Assembly (NCBI RefSeq): GCF_002532075.1
Contig: NZ_LYXE01000151.1
Span: forward strand, 1-33,301
Direction: 5' to 3'
Origin: Candidatus Chloroploca asiatica
GTDB lineage: Bacteria > Chloroflexota > Chloroflexia > Chloroflexales > Chloroflexaceae
Length of the DNA stretch: 33,301 bases
The translations under genes were made by a program, and so were the position numbers. Under the pieces are notes generated by a model, which had not been told where the DNA came from, searched no databases, and saw nothing but the letters and a program-made list of their open reading frames with translations. Of this stretch, positions 13,453 through 27,523 are shown piece by piece (the first letter of the stretch is position 1; each line of letters begins with the position of its first letter).

Positions 13453-14121
13453 ATGAAAAAATACACCATCATCATCCCCACCCTCAACGAAGAAGCGATC
13501 ATTGCCGAGGCGGTGGAGGCTGCCGTCGGTCTTGGCCCCCAGGTTGAGGTTATCGTCGCCGATGGCGGCAGCCAGGATCGCACCGTTGCGTTCGCCGAAG
13601 CAGCCGGGGCAACCGTCGTCGCAGCCCCGCGAGGCCGTGGGCCGCAGTGCAACGCCGGTGCCGCTGCGGCGCATGGCGCGATCCTGATCTTTCTCCATGC
13701 CGATACGCGGCTGCCCGACGATGTCATCGGGTTGCTCGAGACCTGGTTTAGCGCACCGCGGGTGCAGATCGCCAAATTTCGGCTCAGTTTTGACATTGAT
13801 GACTTGGTACTCGATCTGGCCGCCAAGTGTATGTGGTACGATACGCGCCTGACGAGCTATGGCGACCAGGGCATCGTCATCCGTCGCACCTTCTTTGAGG
13901 CCCTGGGCGGCTTCCCCGCCTGGCCGCTCTTTGAAGACGTCCGGCTCTTTGAACGCGCCCGTGAGCGCACCTCCGTCGTCGTCCTACCGGCCAGGGTCGT
14001 CACCTCAGCGCGACGCTTCCAGGCCAACGGGGCCATCCCGCAACTCGTGCGTGACCTGGGGCTCTGGATCGAATATGTCGCGGGGGTCTCGCCGTTTGAG
14101 ATCGCCGCACGCTATAAATAG
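13453..14121 (+). CDS. Family 2 glycosyltransferase, arsenosugar/TIGR04283 type
   Basis: This 222-residue protein has a GT-A fold signature. An N-terminal strand and nucleotide loop IIPTLNEE lies at residues 7-14, VIVADGGSQDRT at 34-44, RGRGPQCNAGA at 60-70, and the DxD-like metal motif FLHADTRLP at 80-88. There is no signal peptide or membrane segment. The RGxGPQ-N-G pattern and short length match the group annotated as rSAM/selenodomain-associated transferase 2 (TIGR04283), whose members in arsenic loci are called arsenosugar-biosynthesis glycosyltransferases. The next gene, 12 bases downstream on the same strand, is an ArsR-ArsC fusion, which supports an arsenic-linked role. No radical SAM partner or arsenite methyltransferase is in the window, so the substrate is unproven. 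The ribosome site is weak; ATG 13453 is chosen because the first strand begins directly after it. Confidence 0.85.
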   Translation: MKKYTIIIPTLNEEAIIAEAVEAAVGLGPQVEVIVADGGSQDRTVAFAEAAGATVVAAPRGRGPQCNAGAAAAHGAILIFLHADTRLPDDVIGLLETWFSAPRVQIAKFRLSFDIDDLVLDLAAKCMWYDTRLTSYGDQGIVIRRTFFEALGGFPAWPLFEDVRLFERARERTSVVVLPARVVTSARRFQANGAIPQLVRDLGLWIEYVAGVSPFEIAARYK

Positions 14122-14133
14122 ACGGTTATTTTT

Positions 14134-14859
14134 ATGTCGTCTGCTCTCCCCGAACCGTTACGCCTACTCGCCGACGAGACGCGTTGGCGCCTCGTGGCCC
14201 TGTTGCGCCAGGGCGATTACCAGGTCGGCGAACTCGTGAGTCAGCTTGGCCTTTCGCAGAATCTCGTCTCGTACCATCTGGGGGTGCTCCGCCAGGGTGG
14301 ACTCGTGCTGGCCCATCGCAGCGACGCCGACGGGCGGGCCACCTACTATGGGCTCGATCTTGAGGCCCTCAAGGCGATCTATGCCGCGATCGGAACGCTG
14401 CTCGCTGTGCCTGGGCTCGGGATCGAGGCGCAGCTGCCCGCAGCGACCGTCTTCTTCTTTTGCACCGCCAACAGTGCCCGCTCGCAAATGGCGGAAGCGT
14501 GGATGCGCCATCTGAGTCGTGGGTGCATCACGGTACGCAGTGCCGGCACGCAGCCGACGCGGTTACACCCACTGACCGTTCAAGTCATGCACGAAGTCGG
14601 CCTCGACATTGGCTACCAGACGGCCAAGCACCTCGATAGCCTGGCCGACCTGCAACCCGACCTGATCGTCACCGTCTGCGACATTGCCCGCGAGCACTGC
14701 GTGCGCTGGGGCGAAGCAGTGCGCCAGATCCACTGGAGCGTCGCCGATCCGGTGCTGGTCACCGGCACGCCCGACGAACAGCGACACGCCTTTCGCACCG
14801 CCCGCGACGAACTCCGCTCGCGTGTCGAAGGGTTGCTCCACCTGCTACCAGGCGCATGA
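14134..14859 (+). CDS. ArsR-family regulator fused to thioredoxin-type arsenate reductase (ArsC/LMW-PTP)
   Basis: This is a 241-residue two-domain protein. Residues about 5-95 form an ArsR winged helix (LADETRWRLVALL, then VGELVSQLGLSQNLVSYHL, then the wing DADGRATYYGL). Residues 105-241 form a low-molecular-weight phosphatase/ArsC domain. The P-loop is C110-TANSA-R116-S, and a second cysteine pair is C182 and C189, seven residues apart as in the C82/C89 pair of thioredoxin-coupled ArsC. The DP catalytic motif is at D205-P206. The expected reaction is arsenate to arsenite with disulfide relay to thioredoxin. The HTH part contains no cysteine, so the classical ArsR arsenite site is absent and ligand sensing must differ. 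It follows the glycosyltransferase by 12 bases, probably as one operon. A pure protein-phosphatase role is less likely because the redox cysteine pair is kept. Confidence 0.88.
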   Translation: MSSALPEPLRLLADETRWRLVALLRQGDYQVGELVSQLGLSQNLVSYHLGVLRQGGLVLAHRSDADGRATYYGLDLEALKAIYAAIGTLLAVPGLGIEAQLPAATVFFFCTANSARSQMAEAWMRHLSRGCITVRSAGTQPTRLHPLTVQVMHEVGLDIGYQTAKHLDSLADLQPDLIVTVCDIAREHCVRWGEAVRQIHWSVADPVLVTGTPDEQRHAFRTARDELRSRVEGLLHLLPGA

Positions 14860-15423
14860 TCTCGTCCGTCACCGTGCGTTGGCCTTGGGACGCCCTCATC
14901 AAGACCGGTGAGGTCGCTCGGCGCGTTGGCATTGCCAAGAAGACCTCATCTAGCCGGCGAAGGTGGGCTTGACACGCGGTATAGGGCAATTGCATCATAC
15001 GAAACCGGATACAACAAGACGCGCTCTTTGGCCGCATGCATGTGCATGCACCCAGCGGCGCAAACGGCGCATCAACGCCGATCATCGGCGATCCTGGCAG
15101 CGAAGCGGGCACCCGCGAGGGGTGCCCCTACGGCCGGTTCGGTGTAGGGGCACCCCTGGCGGGTGCCCTGGCGGGGTGCCCCTACGGCCGGTTCGGTGTA
15201 GGGGCACCCCTGAGGGGTGCCCCTACGGCCGGTTCGGTGTAGGGGCACCCCTGGCGGGTGCCCTGGCGTGCACCCGCGAGGGGTGCCCCTACGGCCGGGT
15301 TCGGTGTACGGGCACCCCTGGCGGGCACCCGCGAGGGGTGCCCCTACGGCCGGGTTCGGTGTACGGGCACCCCTGGCGGGTGCCCTGGCGGGTGCCCTGG
15401 TCATGCTGCGCACAGCAACCCAA
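14860..15423. other. Convergent intergenic region with palindromic repeats
   Basis: The 564 bases lie between the ends of two convergent genes. Bases 14860-15105 hold nothing I can identify; ORFs there look like random reading of GC-rich DNA. The rest, 15110-15405, is the palindromic repeat array. The stems could terminate transcription from either side, but there is no T-run. Confidence 0.7.
15116..15400. repeat. Five tandem copies of a palindromic repeat of about 40-55 bp
   Basis: The units begin near 15116, 15173, 15212, 15278 and 15332. Each has a GGGGTGCCCCTA arm, a short GGCCGGTTC centre, a TAGGGGCACCCC (or TACGGGCACCCC) arm, and usually a GGCGGGTGCC tail. The first three copies share one version. 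The last two share two changes: an extra G in the centre and TAC for TAG in the arm. This implies stepwise duplication. Each unit would fold as a hairpin in RNA or single-stranded DNA. Confidence 0.85.
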
Positions 15424-16890
15424 TTACGACGCTGGCGCAAAGATACGGTAGTTGAGGCTCGCGAAGAGGCCATCCTCCTCTTCGAGTTGCCCCAGCAGGG
15501 CGAGATCGGCTTCCTGGAGGTGACGGTGCCGGGCGAGTTCGGCGAGTTGGCTGAAGCGCTGGAGATAGGTGCGCCAGCGGGCCGCCCAGCCCTCTTCGCC
15601 TGCGCCGGCACTCAAGAGCGCCGGCCAGTCGCTCGTCTGCGCAAGAAAGAGTTCGCGTGCCGCCTGGTTTAACAGGCGTTCGTGTTCAGCGACTGCATCG
15701 GGGAAGGCCAGCGCCAGTTCGACCATCGCCTCTTCAGCCCGATGGATCTCTTGCCAGTAGACCTCGGCGACCCCACCTTGCCACGCGCCGTGAACCCCCG
15801 CGGCCCAGGAACCCTCTTTGAGTAACCCCTGCACCCGTGGACGGTGGTTGCGCACATATGCGCCCGGCGTGGTCAGGCGCAGGCTTCCGTGCGTGGTGCT
15901 GAGCATCAACATCGCCTGGAGCCAGGTTGGGCCTTCGACCCAGCGGGTGCCGAGTTGCGCGGCATCGAGCAGGATGAGCCGCAAATCGTCGGCTCCGGCG
16001 CGGGCCTCTTCGGCCACAAGCAACTGGGTAAAATGAACCGCGTGGTTCTGGGCGCGCCGCAGGGCATGGTAAGGATCGTAGAGCGCCCCGCTGCGTGCGT
16101 GGTAGCCCGAAGGATCGTCAGGGTCACGGTAGAGCGGATCGCCCGGGTAGCCCAGGTCTTCGGACCAGATATGGCGGGCGAGATCTTCGTCAGGGAAGAG
16201 TGCCGCGACACGCCCTGGGATCACGTTGATTGGCGTGGGCGGTTGCTGCGCTACCAGGCTGCTGCGGTCGGCCACAACATACCGTAACCCGATCTCCGCC
16301 ATCATGCCTTCAAGCCCCGGACGCCAGCTGCATCCCGGTAGCCAGAGCCCGTCGAGCCGCCCGAGATGACGGGTCGTATGCAGCATGCCACACTCGATCT
16401 GCGCATGCACCGATTCTTCACGCCCCAGCAGCGGTAGGTAGGCATAACTTGCTGGACACGCCAGCGGTTCGATCACCCGCGCTACCGTCAGTTCACGTAG
16501 CCACGCAGGCAAGTGTCGGTTGAACCGCTCGGTAAACGCGCTGAGCCGCTGTTCGATCCACTCGACATAAAAACGCTCAAGGTAGGCGGCATGCGTGTCA
16601 CCCCGCGCCTCGGCCTCGGCCAGACTCGCCTCGCGTTGCGCAATTACCTTCTCCATCCAGAGCACAAAATGTTTCTGTACCAGCGGATCGGCAAGTTGCT
16701 CGAGCAAAAGCGGCGAACAGGCCAGGCCAACCTGGATCGGCAACCTGGTACTATGCAATTCCACCAGCATCTCGACAAAAGGCAAGAGGCTCTGCGCGAT
16801 CATGGCATGCAGGGCATCCTCACCCTCTGGCTGAGGCCCGGCATGGCGTACATAGGGCATATGAGCAATAAATAAAAAGGCAATCTGCAT
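15424..16890 (-). CDS. GH57-like (DUF1957) protein, probably catalytically inactive
   Basis: This 488-residue protein follows the GH57 glucan-branching-enzyme layout: AHMPYVRH at residues 9-16, ASYAYLPLLG at 147-156, LWLPGCSWRPG at 182-192, a ledLGYPGDPLYRD-like segment at 244-256, and LLDAAQLGTRWVEGP at 307-321. In active members the third motif reads WLPE-C/M, where Glu is the nucleophile; here it is Gly186. The first-motif HxH is reduced to IAH, the ATHG-type histidine of motif 2 is Tyr, and the FDxELFGHWW region keeps the Asp (D309) but loses the Glu and His. This points to a carbohydrate-binding pseudoenzyme rather than a branching enzyme. No signal peptide is seen. It starts five bases after the kinase stop, so the two are very likely co-transcribed. 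Confidence 0.82.
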   Translation of the reverse strand: MQIAFLFIAHMPYVRHAGPQPEGEDALHAMIAQSLLPFVEMLVELHSTRLPIQVGLACSPLLLEQLADPLVQKHFVLWMEKVIAQREASLAEAEARGDTHAAYLERFYVEWIEQRLSAFTERFNRHLPAWLRELTVARVIEPLACPASYAYLPLLGREESVHAQIECGMLHTTRHLGRLDGLWLPGCSWRPGLEGMMAEIGLRYVVADRSSLVAQQPPTPINVIPGRVAALFPDEDLARHIWSEDLGYPGDPLYRDPDDPSGYHARSGALYDPYHALRRAQNHAVHFTQLLVAEEARAGADDLRLILLDAAQLGTRWVEGPTWLQAMLMLSTTHGSLRLTTPGAYVRNHRPRVQGLLKEGSWAAGVHGAWQGGVAEVYWQEIHRAEEAMVELALAFPDAVAEHERLLNQAARELFLAQTSDWPALLSAGAGEEGWAARWRTYLQRFSQLAELARHRHLQEADLALLGQLEEEDGLFASLNYRIFAPAS

Positions 16891-16895
16891 GGCTT

Positions 16896-18839
16896 CTACG
16901 GATCTGGCAAAACCGTCACTTCAGGCACCACCTCGGTGGTTGGTGTCTTGGTAAGCAACGGATCTTCGGTTGGGGTCACCGTCAAGATAAATGTTGCCGT
17001 CGGCCCTCCGGTTGGCACAAGCCCCTCGGTAGGATTCGGCGCTTCCGTTGGGGGCGCTGATGGCGTCGGTGTATCTGTCGCTGGGTCAGACGCGGTCGGC
17101 GTGAGCGACGCGGTCGGCGTGGGTGACGCCGCAGTCGGCGTGGGCGACGCGGTCGGCGTGGGCGATGCGGTCGGTGTGGGCGACGCCGCAGTCGGCGTGG
17201 GCGATGCGGTCGGCGTTGGGCTCACCGAGGGTGTGGGCGACTCGGTTGGCGTGGGCGACTCGGTTGGCGTGGGTGACTCGGTTGGCGTCGGCGTGGCGGT
17301 GGGTGGCACCGTCGGCGTGGCGGTCGGCGGTGGAGTCACCGTTGGTTCGAGGGTTGGCGGCACCGGGGTCGGCGAACGCACCGGTGGCGGTGGCACCGGC
17401 GTTGCGGTTGGCACGGGAAGCGGGGTGGCCGACGGCGGCGGCGGGGCTTCGGTGGCGGTCGGAGTGATCACCGGGACGGCACTGCCTGCCAGGGGTGGCG
17501 CAGTTGCCGCTGGGGGCTCGGTCGGCGCGCTGGTGGCGGTGGCCGTTGGTGACGGAAAGAGGGGCGGGCGTCCATCCCCGGCAAAACCCCGAGCGGCAGC
17601 CATGATCACCAGGATCGTCCCGATCACAAGCAACGCCCCGATGAGGGTCATAGGAAGCACCCCCGAACGCGCACGTTCGGCTTCGGGCGCACGCATCCGC
17701 CCGGCGCGGGGTACGGCCCCGCTGCCTGGTGGGCGTGCCGAGGTGCGCGGAGGCACCCGGAGGCTCGGTGGCACCGCCTCGGCGCGGTCGGTTGGTTGAC
17801 CGGCACTGCTGGCGGGTTGCCGTGGCAAGGGTGGTGGTTCTGCCCGCGGCGGTGGCGCTACCGGTGGCGGCGCACTACTGGGTGTGGGAGGCCGCACATA
17901 GGCAGCGGGCGGCGGCAGAACGTCGAGTTGCGGCGGGTCTGGCGTACTCCCGATGGGATACGCGAGATCGGCTAGTTGCGCACGGGTGGCGAGTGGGATG
18001 CCGTAATAGACCAGCACCGACCGCAGGGCCTCAACCAGTTCACGCCCTGATGGATAACGCGCCTCGGGAGGTTTGGCGAGGGCGCGCGCCATGATCGCAT
18101 CAAACTCACCGGGCAGGTGCGCGGCAACGCTTGAGGGTGGCGGGGCCGGCAATTGGGCATGGGCGACAATCAACTGCGGAGGTGAACCCGAAAAGGGGAC
18201 CCGCCCCGTTAGCACCTCATAGGCCACCACCCCCAGCGCATAGAGATCGCTGCGACCATCGACCCGGCGGGCCTCAGCCTGTTCGGGCGACAGATACTCG
18301 GGGGTGCCCATAAAGATCCCCGTGCGTGTCAGGCGCTCGCCATCGGCCTCGCTCGTCTGCGCAATGCCAAAATCGGCCAGCAAGACCCGGCCTTCCCGGT
18401 CAACCAGGATATTGTGCGGCTTGATATCACGATGCACCGCACCCTGTGCATGCGCATAATCAAGCGCCAGGGCGACGGGTTCAAGCAGACTCACCGCATA
18501 ACCCGCGTCAAGCCGCGTACGCTCCTGGAGCACCGCAGCGAGACTCTGCCCATTGATATACTCCATCGCGATATAATGCAGGCCGTCCTCTTCGCCTACA
18601 TCATAGATGGTCACAATCGCAGGGTGGCGGAGACTCGCCGCCGTCGTCGCCTCACGCTCGAAGCGACGCACAAACTCGGTATCGAGGCTTAATTGGGCCG
18701 CCAGAACCTTCAGCGCAACCTGGCGCTGCAGCTGCGTGTCCAGGGCCAGATAGACCCGGGCCATGCCGCCGCGACCCAACTCGGCGCGGATCTCGTAGCG
18801 CCCTAGACGGCGCCCGATCAGACCGGTGACACTCTGCAC
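16896..18839 (-). CDS. Transmembrane Ser/Thr protein kinase (PknB type) with Pro/Thr-rich extracellular tail
   Basis: This 647-residue protein starts at GTG 18839. The kinase domain spans residues about 14-275: glycine loop LGRGGMARV (21-29), VALK with Lys44, catalytic HRDIKPHN (136-143), DFG at 156-158 and the activation segment MGTPEYLSPEQ (177-187). A Pro-rich juxtamembrane linker covers 300-395. One membrane segment (TLIGALLVIGTILVIMAAA) lies at about 398-416, and an extracellular tail of about 220 residues is built of PTPTxSPTP repeats. There are no PASTA or other sensor domains. The tail may be wall-spanning or O-glycosylated (inference). All catalytic residues are present. The gene is divergent from an FHA-winged-helix regulator and precedes the GH57-like gene by five bases. 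Confidence 0.93.
   Translation of the reverse strand: MQSVTGLIGRRLGRYEIRAELGRGGMARVYLALDTQLQRQVALKVLAAQLSLDTEFVRRFEREATTAASLRHPAIVTIYDVGEEDGLHYIAMEYINGQSLAAVLQERTRLDAGYAVSLLEPVALALDYAHAQGAVHRDIKPHNILVDREGRVLLADFGIAQTSEADGERLTRTGIFMGTPEYLSPEQAEARRVDGRSDLYALGVVAYEVLTGRVPFSGSPPQLIVAHAQLPAPPPSSVAAHLPGEFDAIMARALAKPPEARYPSGRELVEALRSVLVYYGIPLATRAQLADLAYPIGSTPDPPQLDVLPPPAAYVRPPTPSSAPPPVAPPPRAEPPPLPRQPASSAGQPTDRAEAVPPSLRVPPRTSARPPGSGAVPRAGRMRAPEAERARSGVLPMTLIGALLVIGTILVIMAAARGFAGDGRPPLFPSPTATATSAPTEPPAATAPPLAGSAVPVITPTATEAPPPPSATPLPVPTATPVPPPPVRSPTPVPPTLEPTVTPPPTATPTVPPTATPTPTESPTPTESPTPTESPTPSVSPTPTASPTPTAASPTPTASPTPTASPTPTAASPTPTASLTPTASDPATDTPTPSAPPTEAPNPTEGLVPTGGPTATFILTVTPTEDPLLTKTPTTEVVPEVTVLPDP
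17096..17295 (-). repeat. Low-complexity coding repeat (Ser-Pro-Thr-Pro-Thr)
   Basis: Short units of about 12-18 bases related to GTCGGCGTGGGC repeat on the plus strand and encode the TPTASPTP-type tail of the kinase. A three-unit GACTCGGTTGGCGTGG subset near 17238-17290 gives three identical PTPTES units. Slippage should make the tail length variable between strains. Confidence 0.85.
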
Positions 18840-18877
18840 AGGATGGTGCTCAACAGATAGTGTGGTATTTTTACCAG

Positions 18878-18895
18878 CCTGATGGTATAATCAGG
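18878..18895. promoter_or_regulatory. Dyad overlapping a TATAAT box in the divergent kinase/FHA promoter
   Basis: CCTGAT, six bases, ATCAGG form an 18-bp dyad. It contains TATAAT (18886-18891), a perfect -10 box for the plus-strand FHA gene; the minus strand reads TTATACC for the kinase. The whole divergent spacer is only 119 bp, so one regulator bound here could control both genes. A matching -35 box is weak. Confidence 0.5.
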
Positions 18896-18958
18896 CATAT
18901 TAGAGCGATTGTACCACATCGCACCTTTGGTTTCAAAGTTGTACAGAGGAACCCAGGC

Positions 18959-19612
18959 ATGGTCGCTGCGCCTGCGCCAAAATTGATCATCAAGCGCCAG
19001 GATGGTCACTATCGTGAACTCGATTGGGATCGCGAACAGTTGACGATCGGGCGTGATGGGGCCAATGATATTGTGATCGATCATCCTCTCGCCTCGCGAC
19101 GACACGCTCGTCTTGAGCAGACCGAGGATGCCTTTGTGCTCCGCGATCTTGAGAGTACCAATGGTACTTTTGTCAATCAAGAACGCATTGAAGGCCTTGT
19201 TCATCTACACAATCAGGATCAGATCTTTATTGCTGATACGATTATTATTTTTCACGACCCCGAAGCAACCGTCAAAGGGGTTGTCCCGCCCGAGTTGCTG
19301 CGTGCAGCGCGGGAAGAGGTGCGCGTTGATAGCCGCACCAAAGAGGTCTTTGTCAAGGGTCAGTTGGTGCAACCCCAGTTGACCGTGAAAGAGTTCCAGT
19401 TGCTCGAGTTGCTCTATCAACGTACGGGCCAGGTGATCAGCAAAGACGAAATCGCCCGCCAGGTCTGGGATTACGAAGTCTTTGACTACAATGCGATTGA
19501 TGCGCTGGTCTATCGGTTGCGCCAGCGGATCGAGCCCGATCCCGCGCATCCGCGCTATCTGGTGACCCAGCGTGGGTTTGGCTACAAACTTGTGACAACG
19601 CCCGAGGCATAA
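18959..19612 (+). CDS. FHA domain fused to OmpR-type winged-helix transcriptional regulator
   Basis: This 217-residue protein starts at ATG 18959, chosen for the AGAGGA ribosome site eight bases upstream (18945-18950). A longer in-frame ATG at 18860 lies before the -10 box and is unlikely. The FHA domain occupies residues about 8-100: core residues G31-R32, S46-R-R-H49 and STNGTFVN (66-73) make the phosphothreonine pocket. Residues 120-213 are a Trans_reg_C winged helix (LTVKEFQLLELL, GQVISKDEIARQVW, DALVYRLRQRI, RGFGYKLV). No receiver domain is present, so activity is probably set by phosphothreonine binding, as in EmbR-like regulators. It is divergent from a Ser/Thr kinase, its likely partner (inference). 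Confidence 0.9.
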   Translation: MVAAPAPKLIIKRQDGHYRELDWDREQLTIGRDGANDIVIDHPLASRRHARLEQTEDAFVLRDLESTNGTFVNQERIEGLVHLHNQDQIFIADTIIIFHDPEATVKGVVPPELLRAAREEVRVDSRTKEVFVKGQLVQPQLTVKEFQLLELLYQRTGQVISKDEIARQVWDYEVFDYNAIDALVYRLRQRIEPDPAHPRYLVTQRGFGYKLVTTPEA

Positions 19613-19636
19613 TTGCCCATCAGTACCATAGGTTCT

Positions 19637-20935
19637 ATGTCAGCACTTACCTTGAGCGCTCCGGCCAGCCTGCGCGGGATTGTGCATGTGCCTGGTGATA
19701 AGTCGATTTCGCATCGTGCGGTGCTCTTCAATGCCGTTGCCAACGGTGATGCGCGGATCACCAATTTCCTGGCGGGGGCCGATTGTCTGGCAACGATTAG
19801 GTGCATGCAGGCCCTCGGGGTCGATGTCCACCGTAATGAGACCGATGTTTTTGTGCGTGGGGTGGGCCTTCGAGGGTTGCGCGAGCCAGGTGATGTGCTC
19901 GATTGTGGCAACTCGGGGACGACGCTGCGCTTGCTGACGGGTTTGCTGGCCGGGATGCCGCTCTTTGCGGTGCTGACCGGCGATGCCTCGCTGCGTTCGC
20001 GCCCTCAGCGTCGCATCGTGACCCCGCTGCGCGAGCTCGGGGTGACGATTGATGGGCGCCTTGACGGTGATCGAGCCCCCCTCATGGTACGTGGGGGCGC
20101 ACTGCAAGGGGGCACCTATGCGCTCCCCGTCGCTTCGGCGCAGGTCAAGTCGGCACTGTTGCTCGCCGCACTCGGTGGTACGGGGCCGTTGACCCTGACG
20201 GGCAAGATCGCGTCACGGGATCACACCGAACGGATGCTTCAGGCGATGGGCCTTGATCTGAACGTTGCCGATGATGAATTGGTCTTGCATCCGCCCACGC
20301 ATCCTGTCTTTCCCTATCCCCTCTCGTTGCGCGTGCCCGGCGATCCTTCATCAGCGGCCTTCTGGTGGGTCGCCGCCGCGATCCATCCCGATGCCGAATT
20401 GCTCACTCCTGGCGTCTGTCTGAATCCGACGCGCACCGGGGCGCTCGAGGTGTTGCAAGCGATGGGGGCCGAGGTGACGATTACGAATGAGCGGATCGAA
20501 GGGAGTGAGCCGGTTGGCGATGTGCTGGTGCAGTCGTCGCATCTGCGCGGCACGACGATCAGTGGTGCGCTTATTCCACGCCTGATTGATGAAATTCCGG
20601 TGCTGGCTGTGGCGGCGGCCTGCGCCGAGGGCGATACCGTCATTCGTGATGCCGGTGAGTTGCGCGCCAAAGAGAGCGACCGGATTGCGACCGTGGTGGC
20701 CGGTTTGCAGGCCCTCGGGGTGACGGTTGAACCAACTGATGATGGCATGGGGATCGTTGGCCTCGGGCGTCCTGCGCTGCAGGGCGCAACGCTGGCGACC
20801 CACGGCGATCATCGCCTCGCCATGGCCTGGGCCGTCGCCTCCCTCGTGGCTGAAGGCGACGTGAGCGTTGATAATCCGGCGTGTGCCGATGTGAGCTATC
20901 CCGCCTTCTGGGAGACCCTCGCGAGTCTTGGCTGA
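19637..20935 (+). CDS. aroA: 3-phosphoshikimate 1-carboxyvinyltransferase (EPSP synthase)
   Basis: This cytoplasmic 432-residue enzyme joins shikimate-3-phosphate and phosphoenolpyruvate in the chorismate pathway. Diagnostic motifs are VPGDKSISHRA (18-28, Lys22), LDCGNSGTTLRLL (88-100), GDASLRSRPQRR (115-126), ASAQVKSALLLA (167-178), LIDEIPVLA (316-324, catalytic Asp318), ESDRIATVV (346-354) and GDHRLAMA (390-397). The glycine of NSGTT is kept, as in ordinary glyphosate-sensitive enzymes. ATG 19637 is preferred because family members begin a few residues before the first strand; an in-frame TTG at 19613, five bases after a GAGG, is possible and would add eight residues. It follows the FHA gene by 24 bases and may be read from the same promoter. 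Confidence 0.96.
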   Translation: MSALTLSAPASLRGIVHVPGDKSISHRAVLFNAVANGDARITNFLAGADCLATIRCMQALGVDVHRNETDVFVRGVGLRGLREPGDVLDCGNSGTTLRLLTGLLAGMPLFAVLTGDASLRSRPQRRIVTPLRELGVTIDGRLDGDRAPLMVRGGALQGGTYALPVASAQVKSALLLAALGGTGPLTLTGKIASRDHTERMLQAMGLDLNVADDELVLHPPTHPVFPYPLSLRVPGDPSSAAFWWVAAAIHPDAELLTPGVCLNPTRTGALEVLQAMGAEVTITNERIEGSEPVGDVLVQSSHLRGTTISGALIPRLIDEIPVLAVAAACAEGDTVIRDAGELRAKESDRIATVVAGLQALGVTVEPTDDGMGIVGLGRPALQGATLATHGDHRLAMAWAVASLVAEGDVSVDNPACADVSYPAFWETLASLG

Positions 20936-20969
20936 GTCGGCTGTGAAGAAGGGCATAGGTACCATAGCG

Positions 20970-21545
20970 ATGAGTAAACGCTATACGTTCACGATTGAGA
21001 TTTATACCTCTGCGCTCGTTATTACGGGGAGTTATGACTTGCCCCTTTATCGTCGGGTGAGCGATGCGCTCAATAGTCGTCTGCATCGCTATATTGTGCT
21101 GCGTGATGCAACGATCGCGCCGGCTGATCGGGTGCAACATGTCCAGCAGGTGCCCCAGATCCTGGTTGACTGGAGTGATGCGTTGCTCGTTGCGTCTATC
21201 AGTGAGCCCGATCCGCCCCCCGATTTCAAACATGCTCAGCCGCCGCGCAATACGCAGCCGATGATGTTTTTTACGCCGCTCTTTGCGCTACGGGCCGATT
21301 TCTATAAGCGGACTGACCGCGAGTTGATCGAAATGCTGAGTGAGATGAACGATGATTTTGTGCCTCTCCGCAATATTACGATCTATCCTCATCATAGCGG
21401 CGCTCCGGTGACGCGGAGTTTTGGTTGCCTCAATCGTCACCATATTCAGGTGCTCTATCCGCTTGGCACGGCGATGCCCAATGCGCCCGTGCCTTCATCT
21501 GAGGCCCCAGTTCACGATGTTCAAGCCCAGGATGCAAACATCTGA
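20970..21545 (+). CDS. Conserved-looking hypothetical protein
   Basis: This 191-residue protein is not recognised. The first 50 residues (FTIEIYTSALVITGSYDLP, then RRVSDALNSRLHRYIVLRDA) look like a small beta-rich domain in which a strand pair is followed by a helix and a ligand-type L-R-D-A segment. The remainder is hydrophilic with a Pro-rich stretch (ISEPDPPPDFKHAQPPR) and no signal peptide or membrane segment. ATG 20970 is chosen over a TTG at 20928, which overlaps the end of aroA. It lies 34 bases after aroA on the same strand, so it is probably in the same operon. Codon use matches its neighbours. Confidence 0.75.
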   Translation: MSKRYTFTIEIYTSALVITGSYDLPLYRRVSDALNSRLHRYIVLRDATIAPADRVQHVQQVPQILVDWSDALLVASISEPDPPPDFKHAQPPRNTQPMMFFTPLFALRADFYKRTDRELIEMLSEMNDDFVPLRNITIYPHHSGAPVTRSFGCLNRHHIQVLYPLGTAMPNAPVPSSEAPVHDVQAQDANI

Positions 21546-21778: not shown

Positions 21779-22765
21779 ATGAAGATTCTTGTGACAGGCG
21801 GAGCCGGATATATCGGCTCAATGACGACGGCTGAGTTGCTCGCGGCAGGCCACCAGGTGGTGGTGCTCGATAATCTCTATCAGGGCCATCGGGCCGCTGT
21901 TCCACCCGAGGCAATCTTTGTGCAGGCCGATCTTGCTGATCGCGCCGCCCTGGCTCGCCTCTTTGCTGACCATCCCGACATTGATGGCATTATGCACTTC
22001 GCCTCGTATACGCTCGTCGGCGAAAGCATGGATAAACCGTTGCTCTACCTGCGGGATAATCTGGTCAATGCGGCGAATCTGCTTGAATATGCCGTTGAGT
22101 CGGGCGTGCGGCGCTTTATTCTCTCTTCCACTGCCAACCTCTTTGATGATCCGGCCAGGATGCCGATTGATGAGCACGAGCGCATTGTGCCTGGTTCGCC
22201 CTATGGCGAGTCCAAGTTTTTTATCGAGCGACTGCTCGCGTGGTTTGAGCGCATCTATGGCTTGCGCTACTGTTGCCTCCGCTATTTCAATGCAAGCGGT
22301 GATACGCCCAACCGTGGCGAAGATCACGATCCCGAAACCCACCTGATCCCGCTGGTGCTGCAGGTTGCGCTTGGTCAGCGCCCCCATATTACCGTCTTTG
22401 GCGACGATTATCCGACCCCCGACGGCACGTGTGTCCGTGATTATATCCATGTTATCGATCTCGCCCAGGCCCATATTCTGGCGATGGAGTCGCTCGATCA
22501 ATTTGGCTCACAGGTCTATAATCTTGGCAATGGCAGTGGCTTCAGTGTCCTCGAGGTGATCGAGACGGCCCGCAAGGTCACCGGCCATCCGATCCCTCAT
22601 GTGATTGGGCCGCGGCGTGCCGGTGATCCGGCAACCCTGGTCGCCTCGTCAACGACGATCCGTGAGAAACTCGGGTGGCAACCCCGCTATCCTGACCTCG
22701 AGGCGATCATTGCCAGTGCCTGGGAATGGCATCGGACGCATCCACATGGCTATGCCGGGGAATGA
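21779..22765 (+). CDS. galE: UDP-glucose 4-epimerase
   Basis: This 328-residue extended short-chain dehydrogenase interconverts UDP-glucose and UDP-galactose using bound NAD. It has the Rossmann loop TGGAGYIG (6-13), Asp31 for the adenosine ribose, catalytic Ser-Ser-Thr at 116-118 and the YGESK pair Tyr142/Lys146. The family segments RYFNASG and [15 protein letters not shown] follow, and length is normal. An AAGGG ribosome site lies about ten bases before the ATG. It supplies activated galactose for exopolysaccharide or glycan synthesis. The probable IS200/IS605 remnant lies immediately upstream and a strong hairpin follows 35 bases after the stop. Confidence 0.94.
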
Positions 22766-22800: not shown

Positions 22801-22850
22801 GAGTGCCGACTTCAGTCGGCCTCCGGTTCAGCCGACTGAAGCCGGCACTC
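22801..22850. repeat. 20-bp inverted repeat after galE
   Basis: Arms 22801-22820 and 22831-22850 pair over 20 bases with a single G-U/mismatch and a ten-base loop. No T-run follows, so it is a REP-like palindrome that may act as an mRNA 3' stabiliser or weak terminator between galE and the kinase. Confidence 0.8.
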
Positions 22851-22877
22851 CCGGAAGTAGTTCTTCATAACCATCTC

Positions 22878-24854
22878 ATGGTATCAGTACCTCATCAAAC
22901 GCGACTCGGCAACTTTCACATGGTGCGCATCATTGGGCGTGGTGCGTCTAGTGAAGTCTGGATGGCGCGCCACGTCCAGATCCATGATCACGTCATGGCG
23001 GTCAAGTTGCTGATGTCGCACGAACCCGAGTTGATCGAACGCTTTCAGCGCGAAGCACACATTGCCGCTCGGCTGCACCATCCCCATATTGTCCAGTTCT
23101 ATGACTTCGGTCAGACGCCGCCTCTCTTCTATGCCGTGATGGAATATATCCAGGGTTTATCGCTGCGCGAGGTGATCGAGCGTCGTGGGGCGTTGCCGTT
23201 GACCGAGGCGGTGCATATCTTCAAGCAGATCGCTGGGGCGCTTGATTATGCCCATAGTCTGCGCATTGTCCATCGCGATGTTTCCCCCGGCAATATCCTG
23301 ATCGAAGAGACAACTCGGCGCGCGGTGCTCACCGATTTTGGCATTGCTCGGGATGCGATCCATCCCATCACGGTTTCGAATGCGATCATGGGTACGCCCT
23401 ATTACCTCTCACCTGAACATCTTGATTCAGCGACGAGGGTTACGCATCTTTCTGATCTTTTTTGTCTGGGAATTATCTTCTATCAGTTGCTCTGTGGGCA
23501 GGTGCCCTGGGTTCAAAGCGGGCGTAATCCTGAGCAACCCGATTTTAATACGTTGATCCCGCTCAGCGAACGGGGCATCGAGGGCATTCCCCGTGGGATG
23601 GACGAGGTGCTGGGCACGCTGCTGGCCCATGATCCGACGCAGCGCTTCGGTTCGGGTAGTGCGGCGGTGCATGCCTTAGAGCAACTGCTCAAGCGCCACG
23701 AGACCGAGACGCAGGTCTTGAATATTGGTATGCTTCCCGCCGAGAGCCTGGTTGAGCTTGAGGCGAGCGGCGTGGAACCAAATGTGGTCGAGCAGGTGCT
23801 GGGGAACGAGTTGAAGCGACCGGTGCTTGAACGTGCCCACCGCCGTGCCAACGAGTTGATGAATGAAGTGGTGGTCAAGGCGCTGCTCGATCACTGGTCG
23901 GCCCAGGATCGCCTGCGCGGTCGCCCGCTGCTTGGCCGTCTCGCCCGGATGCACCGCATTGCCAGCCACAATGTCTATTTCTATCAACTGCAGGTGCTCT
24001 ATGAACGCCGGGTGGCTGGTGAGGATGAAGAAGAGCCGGACCTGGTCGGCGAAGCCTTTCCGCTCGAACGCGAAATCGAACGGTGGAAGGTGACGCTCGA
24101 TGCACCGCAGACCTTTGCCGACCACGCCGGCGAACGCCGTACCCTCCCTGGTTCGACCCGCGTCATCAATTGCCCAAACTGCAAAAGCCGGGGGTTGCTG
24201 GTGTGCAAGCGTTGCCAGGGCAAACAGCGCATCTATATCCCACGTCCGACGACAACCCCATCCTCGGCGCAGGGCACGGCTGCGGGATCCTCGGCGTCAG
24301 GTACTGGCACGACAACCACCCCCGAGCCGCAACAGATCCTGATCTCGTGTCCTGACTGTGATGGCCGTGGGAGCCTCACCTGTCCGCAGTGCGAGGGTGC
24401 GACACGTCTGATCCAGCGCAAGACCTTTCATTGGAGCCGGAACGCACGCCGTTTTGATGCCCAGGATGATCTGCCCCTGGTTGATGAAACCTGGCTGGCC
24501 CGTACCTGCCAGGCCGAACCGATCTATCAGCAACGTCAGGCTGGCGGCTTCCATTCTACGTGGCAACTGATCGAGCCGGTGGCTGAAATCATGCATCAGG
24601 CTGAAGCACAACTCGATACCGACACCCGCATCGTGCTCAGCGAGTTGAGCATTAGCCTCATCCCCGTGACTGACGTGCTCTTTGATCTCGGCAACACCGA
24701 CGAAGATAGCCTCTACCGCCTCTCAATCTATGGCTTCGAAAACCTCATTCCCCCCGACTGGCGCTTTTTCAACTGGGAACGGGTGATCTACCTCCTTTTC
24801 ATTGTTATTTTGGTGCTGCTCATGGGGGTTTTTGCCTTTTTTGCGCTGATCTAG
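22878..24854 (+). CDS. Ser/Thr protein kinase with DnaJ-type zinc domain and C-terminal membrane anchor
   Basis: This 658-residue protein has a kinase domain at residues about 10-275: IIGRGASSEVW, MAVKLL with the ATP lysine, HRDVSPGN as catalytic loop, DFG in LTDFGIA, and MGTPYYLSPEH. The usual HRDxKP lysine is Ser here, a variant seen in some bacterial kinases. Residues 280-430 are helical and charged. Four CxxC pairs (C432/435, C443/446, C491/494, C502/505), in DnaJ-like CxxCxGxG spacing, should bind two zinc ions. A Gly/Ser/Thr/Pro-rich insert splits them. The last 23 residues (VIYLLFIVILVLLMGVFAFF) form a tail anchor with the kinase in the cytoplasm. ATG 22878 is chosen because the upstream GTG at 22803 lies inside the palindrome. 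Confidence 0.9.
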   Translation: MVSVPHQTRLGNFHMVRIIGRGASSEVWMARHVQIHDHVMAVKLLMSHEPELIERFQREAHIAARLHHPHIVQFYDFGQTPPLFYAVMEYIQGLSLREVIERRGALPLTEAVHIFKQIAGALDYAHSLRIVHRDVSPGNILIEETTRRAVLTDFGIARDAIHPITVSNAIMGTPYYLSPEHLDSATRVTHLSDLFCLGIIFYQLLCGQVPWVQSGRNPEQPDFNTLIPLSERGIEGIPRGMDEVLGTLLAHDPTQRFGSGSAAVHALEQLLKRHETETQVLNIGMLPAESLVELEASGVEPNVVEQVLGNELKRPVLERAHRRANELMNEVVVKALLDHWSAQDRLRGRPLLGRLARMHRIASHNVYFYQLQVLYERRVAGEDEEEPDLVGEAFPLEREIERWKVTLDAPQTFADHAGERRTLPGSTRVINCPNCKSRGLLVCKRCQGKQRIYIPRPTTTPSSAQGTAAGSSASGTGTTTTPEPQQILISCPDCDGRGSLTCPQCEGATRLIQRKTFHWSRNARRFDAQDDLPLVDETWLARTCQAEPIYQQRQAGGFHSTWQLIEPVAEIMHQAEAQLDTDTRIVLSELSISLIPVTDVLFDLGNTDEDSLYRLSIYGFENLIPPDWRFFNWERVIYLLFIVILVLLMGVFAFFALI

Positions 24855-25213: not shown

Positions 25214-25440
25214 AAATTTAATTCCGTCAACGGCAGCGCGGCACCCGTTGATCGTGGCGTCATGCTGGCACAGCATCTGGAGAACCCAGCGTGGTATACT
25301 ACGCTTGGTGCGGAGCATACACCGCTCGGTCTGAGGGAGCATCCATCATAGATTACGCTCCACGCTTCTGCGTTCGGCAGTTGCGGTTATCCGTGTCACG
25401 GCAGGCGCGTTGCGTGGCCCGTTCTGATGAGGAGGTCGTC
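25214..25440 (+). promoter_or_regulatory. Leader with extended -10 candidate upstream of the reductase gene
   Basis: TGGTATACT at 25292-25300 fits an extended -10 box and sits within an imperfect hairpin (25286-25308). The predicted leader is about 130 bases. A strong ribosome site, AGGAGG at 25430-25435, precedes GTG 25441 by five bases and fixes that start. No gene is seen between the repeat block and this start. Confidence 0.4.
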
Positions 25441-26127
25441 GTGCGCTTGATCATCGGTGGTGTTTTTCAGTCGCTGGACGGCGTGATGCAGGCTCCTGGT
25501 CGGCCCGAAGAAGATCGTGCGGGTGCCTTTGACCTCGGAGGCTGGGTGGGAGCGTTTACTGATGCGCAGACCCGCGATGCCGTGTTCGCGTACCTGCTCG
25601 ACGCACCATATGCCCTCTTGCTCGGGCGCAAGACCTATGACATCTTCGCCGCATATTGGCCGTTCATGCCCGCCGACAACGCCATCGCGGCACGCTTCAA
25701 TGCCACCACGAAGTATGTACTCACCCGCAGTGATACCCCGCTCGCATGGGCCAATAGTCATACCCTGACCAGTATCGACGCCATTGCACACGTGAAGGCA
25801 ACCGCTGGCCCTGATCTCTTGATCCAGGGCAGCTCGACGCTGTATCCTCCGTTGTTTCGAGCGGGCCTCATTGATCGGCTGCATCTCCAAACTTTCCCCA
25901 TTGTGCTTGGCCGCGGCAAGCGGCTCTTCGGCGCAGGGACACCTGCGGGCGGCATGCGCCTGGTTCACAGCACCGTCTCATCCACCGGTGTCGTGATCGC
26001 CACGTATGAGCCCACCGGCCATCTGCCCACCATATCGCCTGAACCTCCGAACCCCAGCGATGCAGAGATCGCACGCCGTGAACGAATGAATCAGCTTCCT
26101 CTTGAATATTTTGCGGAAAACCTGTAA
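25441..26127 (+). CDS. Dihydrofolate reductase-like (RibD C-terminal domain) protein
   Basis: This is a 228-residue protein. The start GTG 25441 is set by the AGGAGG site at 25430-25435; an ATG upstream at 25291 would fall on the promoter candidate. Family features are the N-terminal strand with SLDGVMQAPG (11-20), LLLGRKTYDIFAAYWP, TKYVLTRS, a central LLIQGSSTLYPPLFRAGLIDR nucleotide-binding region (trimmed) and FPIVLGRGKRLFG. It probably reduces a pterin, flavin precursor or other substrate with NADPH; the true substrate is unknown for most of this family. The last 40 residues are a charged Pro-rich extension. It is the first gene inside the direct-repeat-bounded segment and is separated from the ATPase gene by 67 bases. 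Confidence 0.88.
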   Translation: MRLIIGGVFQSLDGVMQAPGRPEEDRAGAFDLGGWVGAFTDAQTRDAVFAYLLDAPYALLLGRKTYDIFAAYWPFMPADNAIAARFNATTKYVLTRSDTPLAWANSHTLTSIDAIAHVKATAGPDLLIQGSSTLYPPLFRAGLIDRLHLQTFPIVLGRGKRLFGAGTPAGGMRLVHSTVSSTGVVIATYEPTGHLPTISPEPPNPSDAEIARRERMNQLPLEYFAENL

Positions 26128-26194
26128 AATTGACCTGAGGAAGTTGTACCGCGTTCCATCTGCTTGAATCCTCGCACACATAGAGGAGTGGTTG

Positions 26195-27523
26195 ATGCTC
26201 GTTGAATTTCGGGTGACGAATTTTCGTTCCTTCAAAGAGACCCAAATATTTAGCCTAATTGCCGGCAGTGATCGTTCATTGCCGGAAAATACTATTCATA
26301 GTGAAGCGCTTGGGAAACTACGCCTCAATCGCAGCGCTGTTGTCTATGGTGCGAACGCCTCAGGCAAAAGCAATCTGATTGCCGCATTGGAGTTTGTGCG
26401 CCGGTTTGTCCTGAACTCGGTAACACGCCGGACAGTGCGCGAAACCCGCGAGGGTGAGAGCAAGGCTTTGGTGCCGGTCGTGCCGTTTCTTCTCCATCAA
26501 GCAACCCGCGAGGCACCAAGCGAGTTTGAGCTCGTGTTTATTCAAAAAGATGTGCGCTATCAGTACGGCTTTCAGGTTGATCGCCAACGTGTACACAAGG
26601 AATGGCTGATCGCTTTTCCGCATGGTCAACCACAGCGCTGGTTCGAACGTACCTTGAAAGAAGATGGCGAATATGTATGGACATTTCGCTCGAAACAGTT
26701 CCGTGGCGAAAAACAACTGATTACCGACGTAACTCGCGCCGATGCACTTTATCTCTCGGTGGGATCGAACTTTCGGCTCGATCAACTGATCGATGTCTCG
26801 CGCTGGTTCAATCGGCTGCGGTTTTACGTTCCACCGACGAGCTTGCGTGCAGGAATGTCAATCACTGCGGCACGTGCATCTCGTCATCCGGCCTTTCATC
26901 AGCGTGTGCGTGAGTTGCTCACCTTCGCCGATGTCGGCATTGTCGACTTTACCGTTGAAGAGGTTGTCACGGAGATTTCGCCTCAACGTTCACTCTTTCC
27001 CGAAGATGATCGTTCAAGCGCTCAATCGAGGCGCTATGAAGTGCTCCTTGCCCATCAGGGTGCGCCTTTTGAAGAACCGGCGTTGCTGCCGCTACAGGAA
27101 GAGTCACGCGGTACACAACAACTCTTCGAACTGGCAGCGCGTTTGATCGATGCCCTCGATGAAGGCAGTCTGTTGATCATTGATGAACTCGATAGCAGTT
27201 TGCACCCAATCCTCACGCGCAAACTGGTCGAAATGTTTCATGATCCACAGATTAACCAGAACAACGCCCAGTTGATCTTCAACACGCACGATGTTTCGTT
27301 GCTTGATCGCACCCTGTTCCGGCGCGATCAGATCTGGTTTACCGAGAAAGATCGGGCTGGAGCAACCCAACTCTACTCATTGCTGGAATTTAGCCCACGC
27401 AAAGAAGAAGCGCTGGCAAAGAACTATTTGCAAGGCCGTTATGGGGCGATCCCCTTCATCGAAGATCTTGGAGAGTGGTGGGCTGCAGATGCCGAAACCG
27501 AAACAACCGAAATCGAAGACTAA
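26195..27523 (+). CDS. RloA/AbiLi-like AAA ATPase
   Basis: This 442-residue protein starts at ATG 26195, six bases after AGAGGAG. It has an ABC/SMC-like ATPase head of the AAA15/AAA21 type: N-terminal FRVTNFRSF, Walker A GANASGKS (52-59), a long insert, signature region EESRGTQQLFEL (302-313), Walker B SLLIIDELDSSLHP (325-338) and H-loop FNTHD with His365. All nucleotide-handling residues are present. The gene overlaps the downstream rloB-like gene by 35 bases in another frame, which indicates translational coupling. The pair matches RloA-RloB and the lactococcal abortive-infection system AbiL (established for the family). In that model the ATPase senses infection and controls the Toprim partner (inference here). 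No restriction-modification gene is nearby. Confidence 0.9.
   Translation: MLVEFRVTNFRSFKETQIFSLIAGSDRSLPENTIHSEALGKLRLNRSAVVYGANASGKSNLIAALEFVRRFVLNSVTRRTVRETREGESKALVPVVPFLLHQATREAPSEFELVFIQKDVRYQYGFQVDRQRVHKEWLIAFPHGQPQRWFERTLKEDGEYVWTFRSKQFRGEKQLITDVTRADALYLSVGSNFRLDQLIDVSRWFNRLRFYVPPTSLRAGMSITAARASRHPAFHQRVRELLTFADVGIVDFTVEEVVTEISPQRSLFPEDDRSSAQSRRYEVLLAHQGAPFEEPALLPLQEESRGTQQLFELAARLIDALDEGSLLIIDELDSSLHPILTRKLVEMFHDPQINQNNAQLIFNTHDVSLLDRTLFRRDQIWFTEKDRAGATQLYSLLEFSPRKEEALAKNYLQGRYGAIPFIEDLGEWWAADAETETTEIED

Follow-up and report, generated by a model that had tools for sequence, protein, structure and literature searches.

The 33,301-nucleotide stretch of Candidatus Chloroploca asiatica DNA analysed here (contig NZ_LYXE01000151.1, positions 1–33,301; hereafter the window) encodes a glycoside hydrolase family 57 (GH57) protein that has the fold of an alpha-glucan branching enzyme, lacks the catalytic nucleophile and very likely carries out no GH57 chemistry. 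Its ancestor would have been a GH57 branching enzyme. Since the catalytic Glu has been lost and the gene lies directly behind a Ser/Thr kinase gene, the protein is probably a regulator rather than an enzyme in this filamentous green phototroph. Gene order makes it likely that it works with this kinase, and we tentatively propose that it is a cytosolic, non-enzymatic partner of the membrane-bound kinase, perhaps one that reports alpha-glucan status. The gene and three diagnostic codons are:

15424–16890, minus strand: GH57 branching-enzyme-like pseudoenzyme of 488 amino acids, with a GH57 barrel and a BE_C domain (Pfam, PDB and model)
16867–16869, minus strand: Ile8 codon, in place of the acid-polarising His10 of TK1436 (HMMER alignment)
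16333–16335, minus strand: Gly186 codon (GGA), at the position of the catalytic nucleophile Glu (HMMER and MAFFT alignments)
15964–15966, minus strand: Asp309 codon, the proton donor, which is kept (D354 of TK1436; HMMER alignment)

An earlier note on this DNA had described the frame as intact and full length, and it indeed runs unbroken from an ATG start through all 488 residues. The translation matches the Pfam families PF03065 (Glyco_hydro_57, 6.1e-13) and PF09210 (BE_C, 1.1e-22), both above their cut-offs. The closest solved structures by sequence are 5wu7 (P. horikoshii), 3n8t (TK1436), 1ufa and 3p0b (both TT1467) and 2b5d (T. maritima AmyC), with E-values from 6e-50 to 3.2e-38. The PDB titles of the first four name branching enzymes or TT1467, and AmyC has been identified as a branching enzyme (PMC6616209). 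The structural modelling that the note had proposed as a check bears out its claim that the fold is kept: an AlphaFold2 model (41 aligned sequences) reached a mean pLDDT of 93.0 and a pTM of 0.92, and Foldseek matched it to GH57 branching enzymes with TM scores of 0.88–0.90 by query. VIA-align superposed 464 residues of the model on 1ufa (Z 44.7, rmsd 1.9) and gave Z scores of 44.5, 42.8, 41.6 and 41.2 for the other four branching-enzyme entries; the next GH57 group followed at 31.0, and the sequence search ranks the groups alike. Thus, Pfam and the model place the whole branching-enzyme fold, BE_C domain included, in the window protein. Its scores fall below the cut-offs of the NCBIfam equivalog models NF041566 (202.5 of 920 bits) and NF041133 (196.4 of 1000 bits), which were built for particular clades.

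HMMER alignments to 5wu7 and 3n8t place Gly186 on the catalytic Glu of the WLPEC motif, and the placement is the same in MAFFT alignments that include 40 and, in a second round, 63 relatives. The replacement of the WLPE Glu by Gly186 is thereby confirmed, and the alignment suggested as a check puts no Glu at the nucleophile position. The further claim, that other GH57 motif residues are lost, stood in part. Among the 17 active-site and groove residues of TK1436 listed in Table 1 of PMC6616209 and transferred here by HMMER alignment, ten are changed (E183, H10, W28, W22, F24, F285, W361, F470, R261 and Y233) and seven are kept (D354, H12, W270, W407, W416, S466 and D467), the latter including the proton donor Asp309, on which the note is silent. 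The catalytic-loop Y233 corresponds to a deletion in the window protein, and W28 has no TT1467 equivalent in the same table. The protein also retains the WxEG, GYPGDP and SDW motifs and the residues Trp242, Trp362, Trp370 and Ser420-Asp421. Furthermore, of the 144 positions that do not vary among 16 canonical branching enzymes of the class, it keeps 76; all 16 of these enzymes have His where the window protein has Ile8. The stretches that we assign to the five conserved regions of GH57 align as well; on this assignment, taken from the logo text and not by the procedure of PMC6037648, position 23 is Gln312 (not Leu) and position 35 is Ala424 (not Phe). In sum of likeness, the protein shares with TK1436, TT1467, 5wu7 and AmyC the whole-length fold, the BE_C domain, the proton-donor Asp, the second His and the SDW motif, but at 26–31% identity it differs from them in lacking the nucleophile Glu, the polarising His and the catalytic-loop Tyr. 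No retaining chemistry is expected, because Gly186 replaces the nucleophile and Ile8 the acid-polarising His; from these residues we firmly infer that the normal retaining reaction has been lost.

Loss of the nucleophile Glu recurs in the order. The named relatives are Candidatus Chloroploca mongolica and Candidatus Chloroploca sp. Khr17 (97–98% identity), from a scan of named genomes that yielded only four loci; genomes G001 and G002 belong to the window's genus. A search of relatives found a match in 43 of 61 genomes, with 14 of the 37 genomes of the window's family (f1, the window's own genome counted) having none. A class-wide search with a 41-sequence profile matched 129 of 158 genomes, many of these matches being canonical enzymes or weak hits to other GH57 proteins. 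In a phylum sample, 76 of 400 genomes matched at 1e-10; among the matches listed, near-full-length single ones were confined to the window's order, and those outside it were mostly split in two around a stretch where the canonical enzymes carry an insert. A maximum-likelihood tree of 64 proteins, built with column 186 excluded, groups the 47 short proteins of the order in one clade (SH-aLRT 100) and leaves the 17 canonical-type enzymes outside it. A more careful tree of the 47 short proteins with five canonical rows recovers the same split (100/100). Because of a warning about long branches that meet, we place no weight on the branching order of families f2 and f3. For these comparisons we took 4 of the 8 f3 genomes with a copy (leaving out G041, G050, G055 and the partial G057) and 12 of the 14 f4 genomes (leaving out fragments in G048 and G071), and also set aside a 104-residue fragment in G052; the canonical rows are a minority of the canonical enzymes of the class.

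All 27 f1 copies, from nine genera, lack the nucleophile Glu (25 have Gly, one Ala and one Asn), and all 27 have lost the acid-polarising His and Arg261. The proton donor is gone from three of them (G010, G062 and G020), two of which have Asn at that position and the third His. With the nucleophile absent throughout and the donor lost in three copies, GH57 catalysis is not preserved family-wide. The family holds 95 of its 488 positions invariant across the 27 sequences. His10, Trp317, Glu319 and Asp421 are among them, and Trp370 is kept in 25. Trp362 is missing from seven copies and Trp242 from three. Positions such as Trp189, Trp439 and Asn480 are fixed in f1 and fixed for a different residue in the canonical enzymes. 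Elsewhere in the clade, the nucleophile is absent from 4 of 4 f2 copies, 1 of the 4 f3 copies taken and 2 of the 12 f4 copies taken. Three f3 rows have Glu within an altered motif (WSAE), which makes retention there less sure. The fewest changes of the Glu number three with canonical enzymes in the tree and two within the 47-row clade, allowing regain; if regain is impossible, our own count gives four losses (f1, f2, G044 and the pair G045 and G069). A mirror case comes from genome G087, where locus L094 (1648–3369, minus strand) encodes a branching-enzyme-type GH57 protein that keeps the Glu and has Ala at the proton-donor position; it stands outside the 16 canonical rows because of that Ala.

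The gene is under strong purifying selection, at a level like that of its probable housekeeping neighbour aroA. Among the three Chloroploca genomes, its dN/dS (NG86) is 0.042, 0.066 and 0.078, compared to 0.062–0.082 for aroA, 0.040–0.052 for galE and 0.016–0.034 for the kinase domain; four wider pairs gave 0.064–0.192. These values agree with the view in the earlier note that selection has retained the fold. Together with the missing Glu in 27 of 27 copies, they identify the window protein as a maintained pseudoenzyme and lead us to reject chance, a sequencing error or a pseudogene as the explanation.

Proteins of this kind are already known, as they have been published as an in silico group. 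These GBE-like proteins are GH57 relatives of branching enzymes in which one catalytic residue or both are missing; they number 60 sequences in Table 1 of PMC6037648, all bacterial and of length 520, and the available text gives them no function. The window protein is likewise nearest to branching enzymes within GH57, by sequence and by Z score, and has one catalytic residue changed (Glu substituted, Asp kept). Linkage to a kinase gene is a feature of the window's family that the available text of PMC6037648 does not mention, and the string 'Chloroflex' is absent from the main text. The new part is the gene context: a conserved upstream kinase, an FHA regulator and a separate GlgE-TreS/Mak-GlgB branching route. 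The genes upstream of the pseudoenzyme are:

16896–18839, minus strand: Ser/Thr (Hanks) protein kinase of 647 amino acids (Pfam Pkinase, 1.4e-46)
18860–19612, plus strand: regulator with an FHA domain and an OmpR-type winged helix (Pfam FHA, 4.7e-21; Trans_reg_C, 4.5e-22)
19613–20935, plus strand: aroA, 3-phosphoshikimate 1-carboxyvinyltransferase, a conserved and probably housekeeping neighbour (TIGR01356, 409.3 bits, cut-off 287.25)
20928–21545, plus strand: DUF6812 protein, a conserved neighbour (PF20660, 1.5e-11)
21779–22765, plus strand: galE, UDP-glucose 4-epimerase, a conserved neighbour (TIGR01179, 394.3 bits, cut-off 262.3)

Five bases separate the kinase stop codon from the ATG of the GH57-like gene. 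A hydropathy script divides the kinase into the kinase domain, one predicted transmembrane segment within residues 391–422 and a Pro/Thr/Ser-rich tail of 222 residues (65% P+T+S); Pfam matches are to kinase families only, with no sensor domain. The regulator has its FHA domain at the N-terminus, its winged helix at the C-terminus and no further domain by Pfam, and its true start is probably further in, because relatives align from about residue 30. The product of 19613–20935 exceeds the aroA cut-off and scores only 43.6 bits against the murA cut-off of 392.7, which identifies it as aroA and not MurA; we therefore base no reading of the neighbourhood as a cell-wall sugar operon on it. Beyond galE lies a second Ser/Thr kinase gene (22803–24854) whose C-terminal part weakly matches Cys-rich domains; related kinases also come after galE in L105, L108, L110 and L115.

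In 22 of the 27 f1 loci, and in 22 of the 23 that could be tested, the gene immediately upstream encodes the kinase and is read from the same strand. Four of the other five loci are on contigs that end 1 to 872 bases upstream of the GH57-like gene, and in the fifth (G035) no kinase was seen within 2512 bases upstream. The FHA regulator gene is divergent from the kinase gene in 18 of the 22 loci and was not seen in G012, G027, G032 and G006. We also took the FHA locus for 12 of the 14 f1 genomes without the GH57-like gene. In four of these 12 (G009, G011, G015 and G024), other genes come after an intact kinase gene. Within the family, the GH57-like gene thus accompanies the kinase, but the kinase can do without the GH57-like gene, and an obligate partnership is rejected in this one direction. 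As for the rest, G017 has kinase matches in two frames, the contigs of G031, G018 and G008 end within or near the kinase gene, G005 has no kinase in 632 upstream bases, and G019, G016 and G026 have none beside the FHA gene. In the other three families of the order, none of 14 GBE-like loci has this kinase as the neighbour. Upstream of the GBE-like gene in four f4 loci lies a gene for an APH-type phosphotransferase, identified by Pfam in L028. In four f3 loci (L035, L036, L038 and L040), the flanking genes encode a membrane protein with DUF2270 and a phosphatase of the PP2C type, both identified by Pfam in L035; the genomes of these four loci contain, in addition, a longer GH57 frame of canonical type.

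The genome of the window encodes a GH13 GlgB (876 bits, cut-off 464) in a cluster with GlgE, TreS/maltokinase (Mak), a GH57-DUF3536 protein and TreY, on a different contig from the window (G000:C89). Because this GlgE/GlgB cluster is in the same genome, branching need not depend on the window protein. Genome G029 likewise has GlgE, TreS/maltokinase, GlgB and GH57-DUF3536 in one stretch. The GH57-DUF3536 proteins within such clusters have 812–814 amino acids (L101, 11908–14352; L102, 12157–14595), and the L101 copy has no NCBIfam match at 1e-10. At a threshold of 1e-60, GlgA had no match in any of the three Chloroploca genomes, nor in the eight g9 genomes (a further genus); it is present in G030, G023 and G013 of the window's family.

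GlgA is present in each of the ten f4 genomes whose copy keeps both Glu and Asp, and GH13 GlgB has no match in any of them. The sole candidate branching enzyme seen in these ten is the GBE-like protein, with its polarising His missing. Four such copies (L028, L030, L031 and L058), each with Glu and Asp and without the His, are possibly the real branching enzymes of their genomes. Across the 47 GBE-like rows, the Glu is lost in 27 with GH13 GlgB and in 7 without it, and kept in 13 without GlgB and in none with it. A tie between Glu loss and the arrival of GH13 GlgB is a suggestion only. As a driver of the loss, GlgB arrival is unsupported once kinship is considered (5 independent pairs, with the trait changing in the same direction in 0.8 of them on average; sign test p = 1). 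Counter-cases are G037 (99% complete), with neither Glu nor GlgB, and G052, G083, G086 and G089, each with GH13 GlgB and a canonical GH57 enzyme that has its Glu.

This distribution bears on whether the gene is a relic on its way out, a branching enzyme displaced by GH13 GlgB. All 27 GBE-like rows from GlgB genomes lack the Glu, all 13 Glu-keepers are in GlgB-free genomes, and 14 of the 37 f1 genomes have no match, all of which would speak for a relic. The family copies are open frames without internal stops, however, and dN/dS of 0.04–0.19 across seven pairs makes decay hard to hold; we consider it very improbable. A changed chemistry would suit the retained Asp309 and WxEG, GYPGDP and SDW motifs. 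Glycosidases without a nucleophile can pair a general acid with an external nucleophile, and Asp309 could serve as such an acid with phosphate or a second sugar. The proton-donor position has nonetheless become Asn or His in three f1 members, and the polarising His and Arg261 are gone from all 27, so that a surviving enzyme of this type is quite improbable.

Non-catalytic roles other than the one proposed also deserve weighing. The protein could help glycogen metabolism as a granule scaffold or as a regulatory subunit of GlgB, GlgE or the other GH57 protein, with the kinase linkage reflecting co-regulation only. Derivation from a branching enzyme and the retained Trp242, Trp362, Trp370 and Ser420-Asp421 are consistent with such a helper, which resembles the plant beta-amylases BAM9 and BAM4: neither has measurable activity, yet both regulate the breakdown of starch (PMC8774843). 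The comparison is one of working principle only, between relatives of glucan-active enzymes turned regulators: BAM4 and BAM9 are eukaryotic, have no kinase operon and are not of the window protein's group. They belong to GH14, an unrelated fold family. The gene is, moreover, apart from the glycogen cluster, ten of the 17 groove residues are lost, and Trp362 and Trp242 are missing from seven and three f1 members, respectively; a glycogen helper therefore seems unlikely. The eroded groove, the kinase linkage and family-specific invariant residues such as Trp189, Trp439 and Asn480 would suit a protein that serves purely as a protein-protein adaptor or as a substrate of the kinase, its fold kept for scaffolding and its former glucan groove no longer a sugar-binding site. 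That His10, Trp317, Glu319 and Asp421 are invariant in f1, and Trp370 nearly so, exceeds the needs of a disused groove, and we hold this reading, too, to be unlikely.

The reading that we favour is the kinase partner. The strongest clue to function is the adjoining kinase gene, which the earlier note, in suggesting glycan or glycogen sensing, left unmentioned. The GH57-like protein would be a regulator or a substrate of the kinase, with binding dependent on a ligand for which alpha-glucan in the remains of the groove is the candidate. The kinase could then act on the divergently encoded FHA-winged-helix regulator or on enzymes of the GlgE route. Physical partnership, signalling direction, ligand and output are all inferred. 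The glucan part is weakened by the replacement of ten of the 17 groove residues and helped by the retained Trp residues and fold, so putative glucan reading is a guess. The neighbours of the FHA gene count against the proposed role, as aroA, DUF6812 and galE offer no clear signalling output. So do the four f1 loci where the kinase occurs without the GH57-like gene and the 14 GBE-like loci of the other families, where this kinase is not the neighbour. In the fullest version of the proposal, a branching enzyme displaced by the GlgE/GlgB route would now serve the membrane Ser/Thr kinase as its alpha-glucan receptor in the cytosol, with feedback on the GlgE route or the FHA factor. This version is decidedly unlikely; if true, these phototrophs would have a kinase pathway that senses stored carbon through a dead enzyme.

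Parallels to parts of this scheme exist in actinobacteria. The Ser/Thr kinase PknB exerts negative control over GlgE in actinomycetes; a recent review calls the control of this phosphorylation unclear, and a link to the FHA protein GarA was sought and not found (PMC11046441). Ser/Thr kinases also act on an OmpR-like regulator (PknH-EmbR) and on GarA (PMC6213207). Like PknH-EmbR, the window has a kinase gene beside one for an FHA and OmpR-type DNA-binding protein, a likeness of genes alone. No GH57-like partner of PknB-GlgE, PknH-EmbR or GarA is described in the available text of these two papers (PMC11046441, PMC6213207), and 'Chloroflex' and 'pseudoenzyme' do not occur in that of PMC11046441. 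Judged by title and the start of the abstract, none of the papers listed in searches of an open-licence library concerns a kinase paired with a GH57-like protein. Dead glucan-active enzymes are known as regulators in plants, and the bacterial GH57 'like' groups are described without function in the sources available. In the present GBE-like case, the signalling gene next door is conserved, Glu and Asp survive in a sister lineage, and the genome has a clear alternative for branching. Two purified proteins would suffice to test both the making of this pseudoenzyme and its possible glucan input to the kinase.

Just downstream of the GH57-like gene, the region 13453–14859 holds an arsenic-related pair: a TIGR04283 arsenosugar-type glycosyltransferase gene (221.7 bits, cut-off 182), then a fusion of ArsR with a low-molecular-weight phosphatase. 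Between the fusion gene and the stop codon of the GH57-like gene sits a GC-rich tandem repeat (15105–15380) with a period of 55, about 5 copies and 71% matches. Farther along the window, an AAA_21 ATPase (AbiEii-like in its Pfam name) adjoins a RibD_C protein (26192–27523 and 25291–26127).
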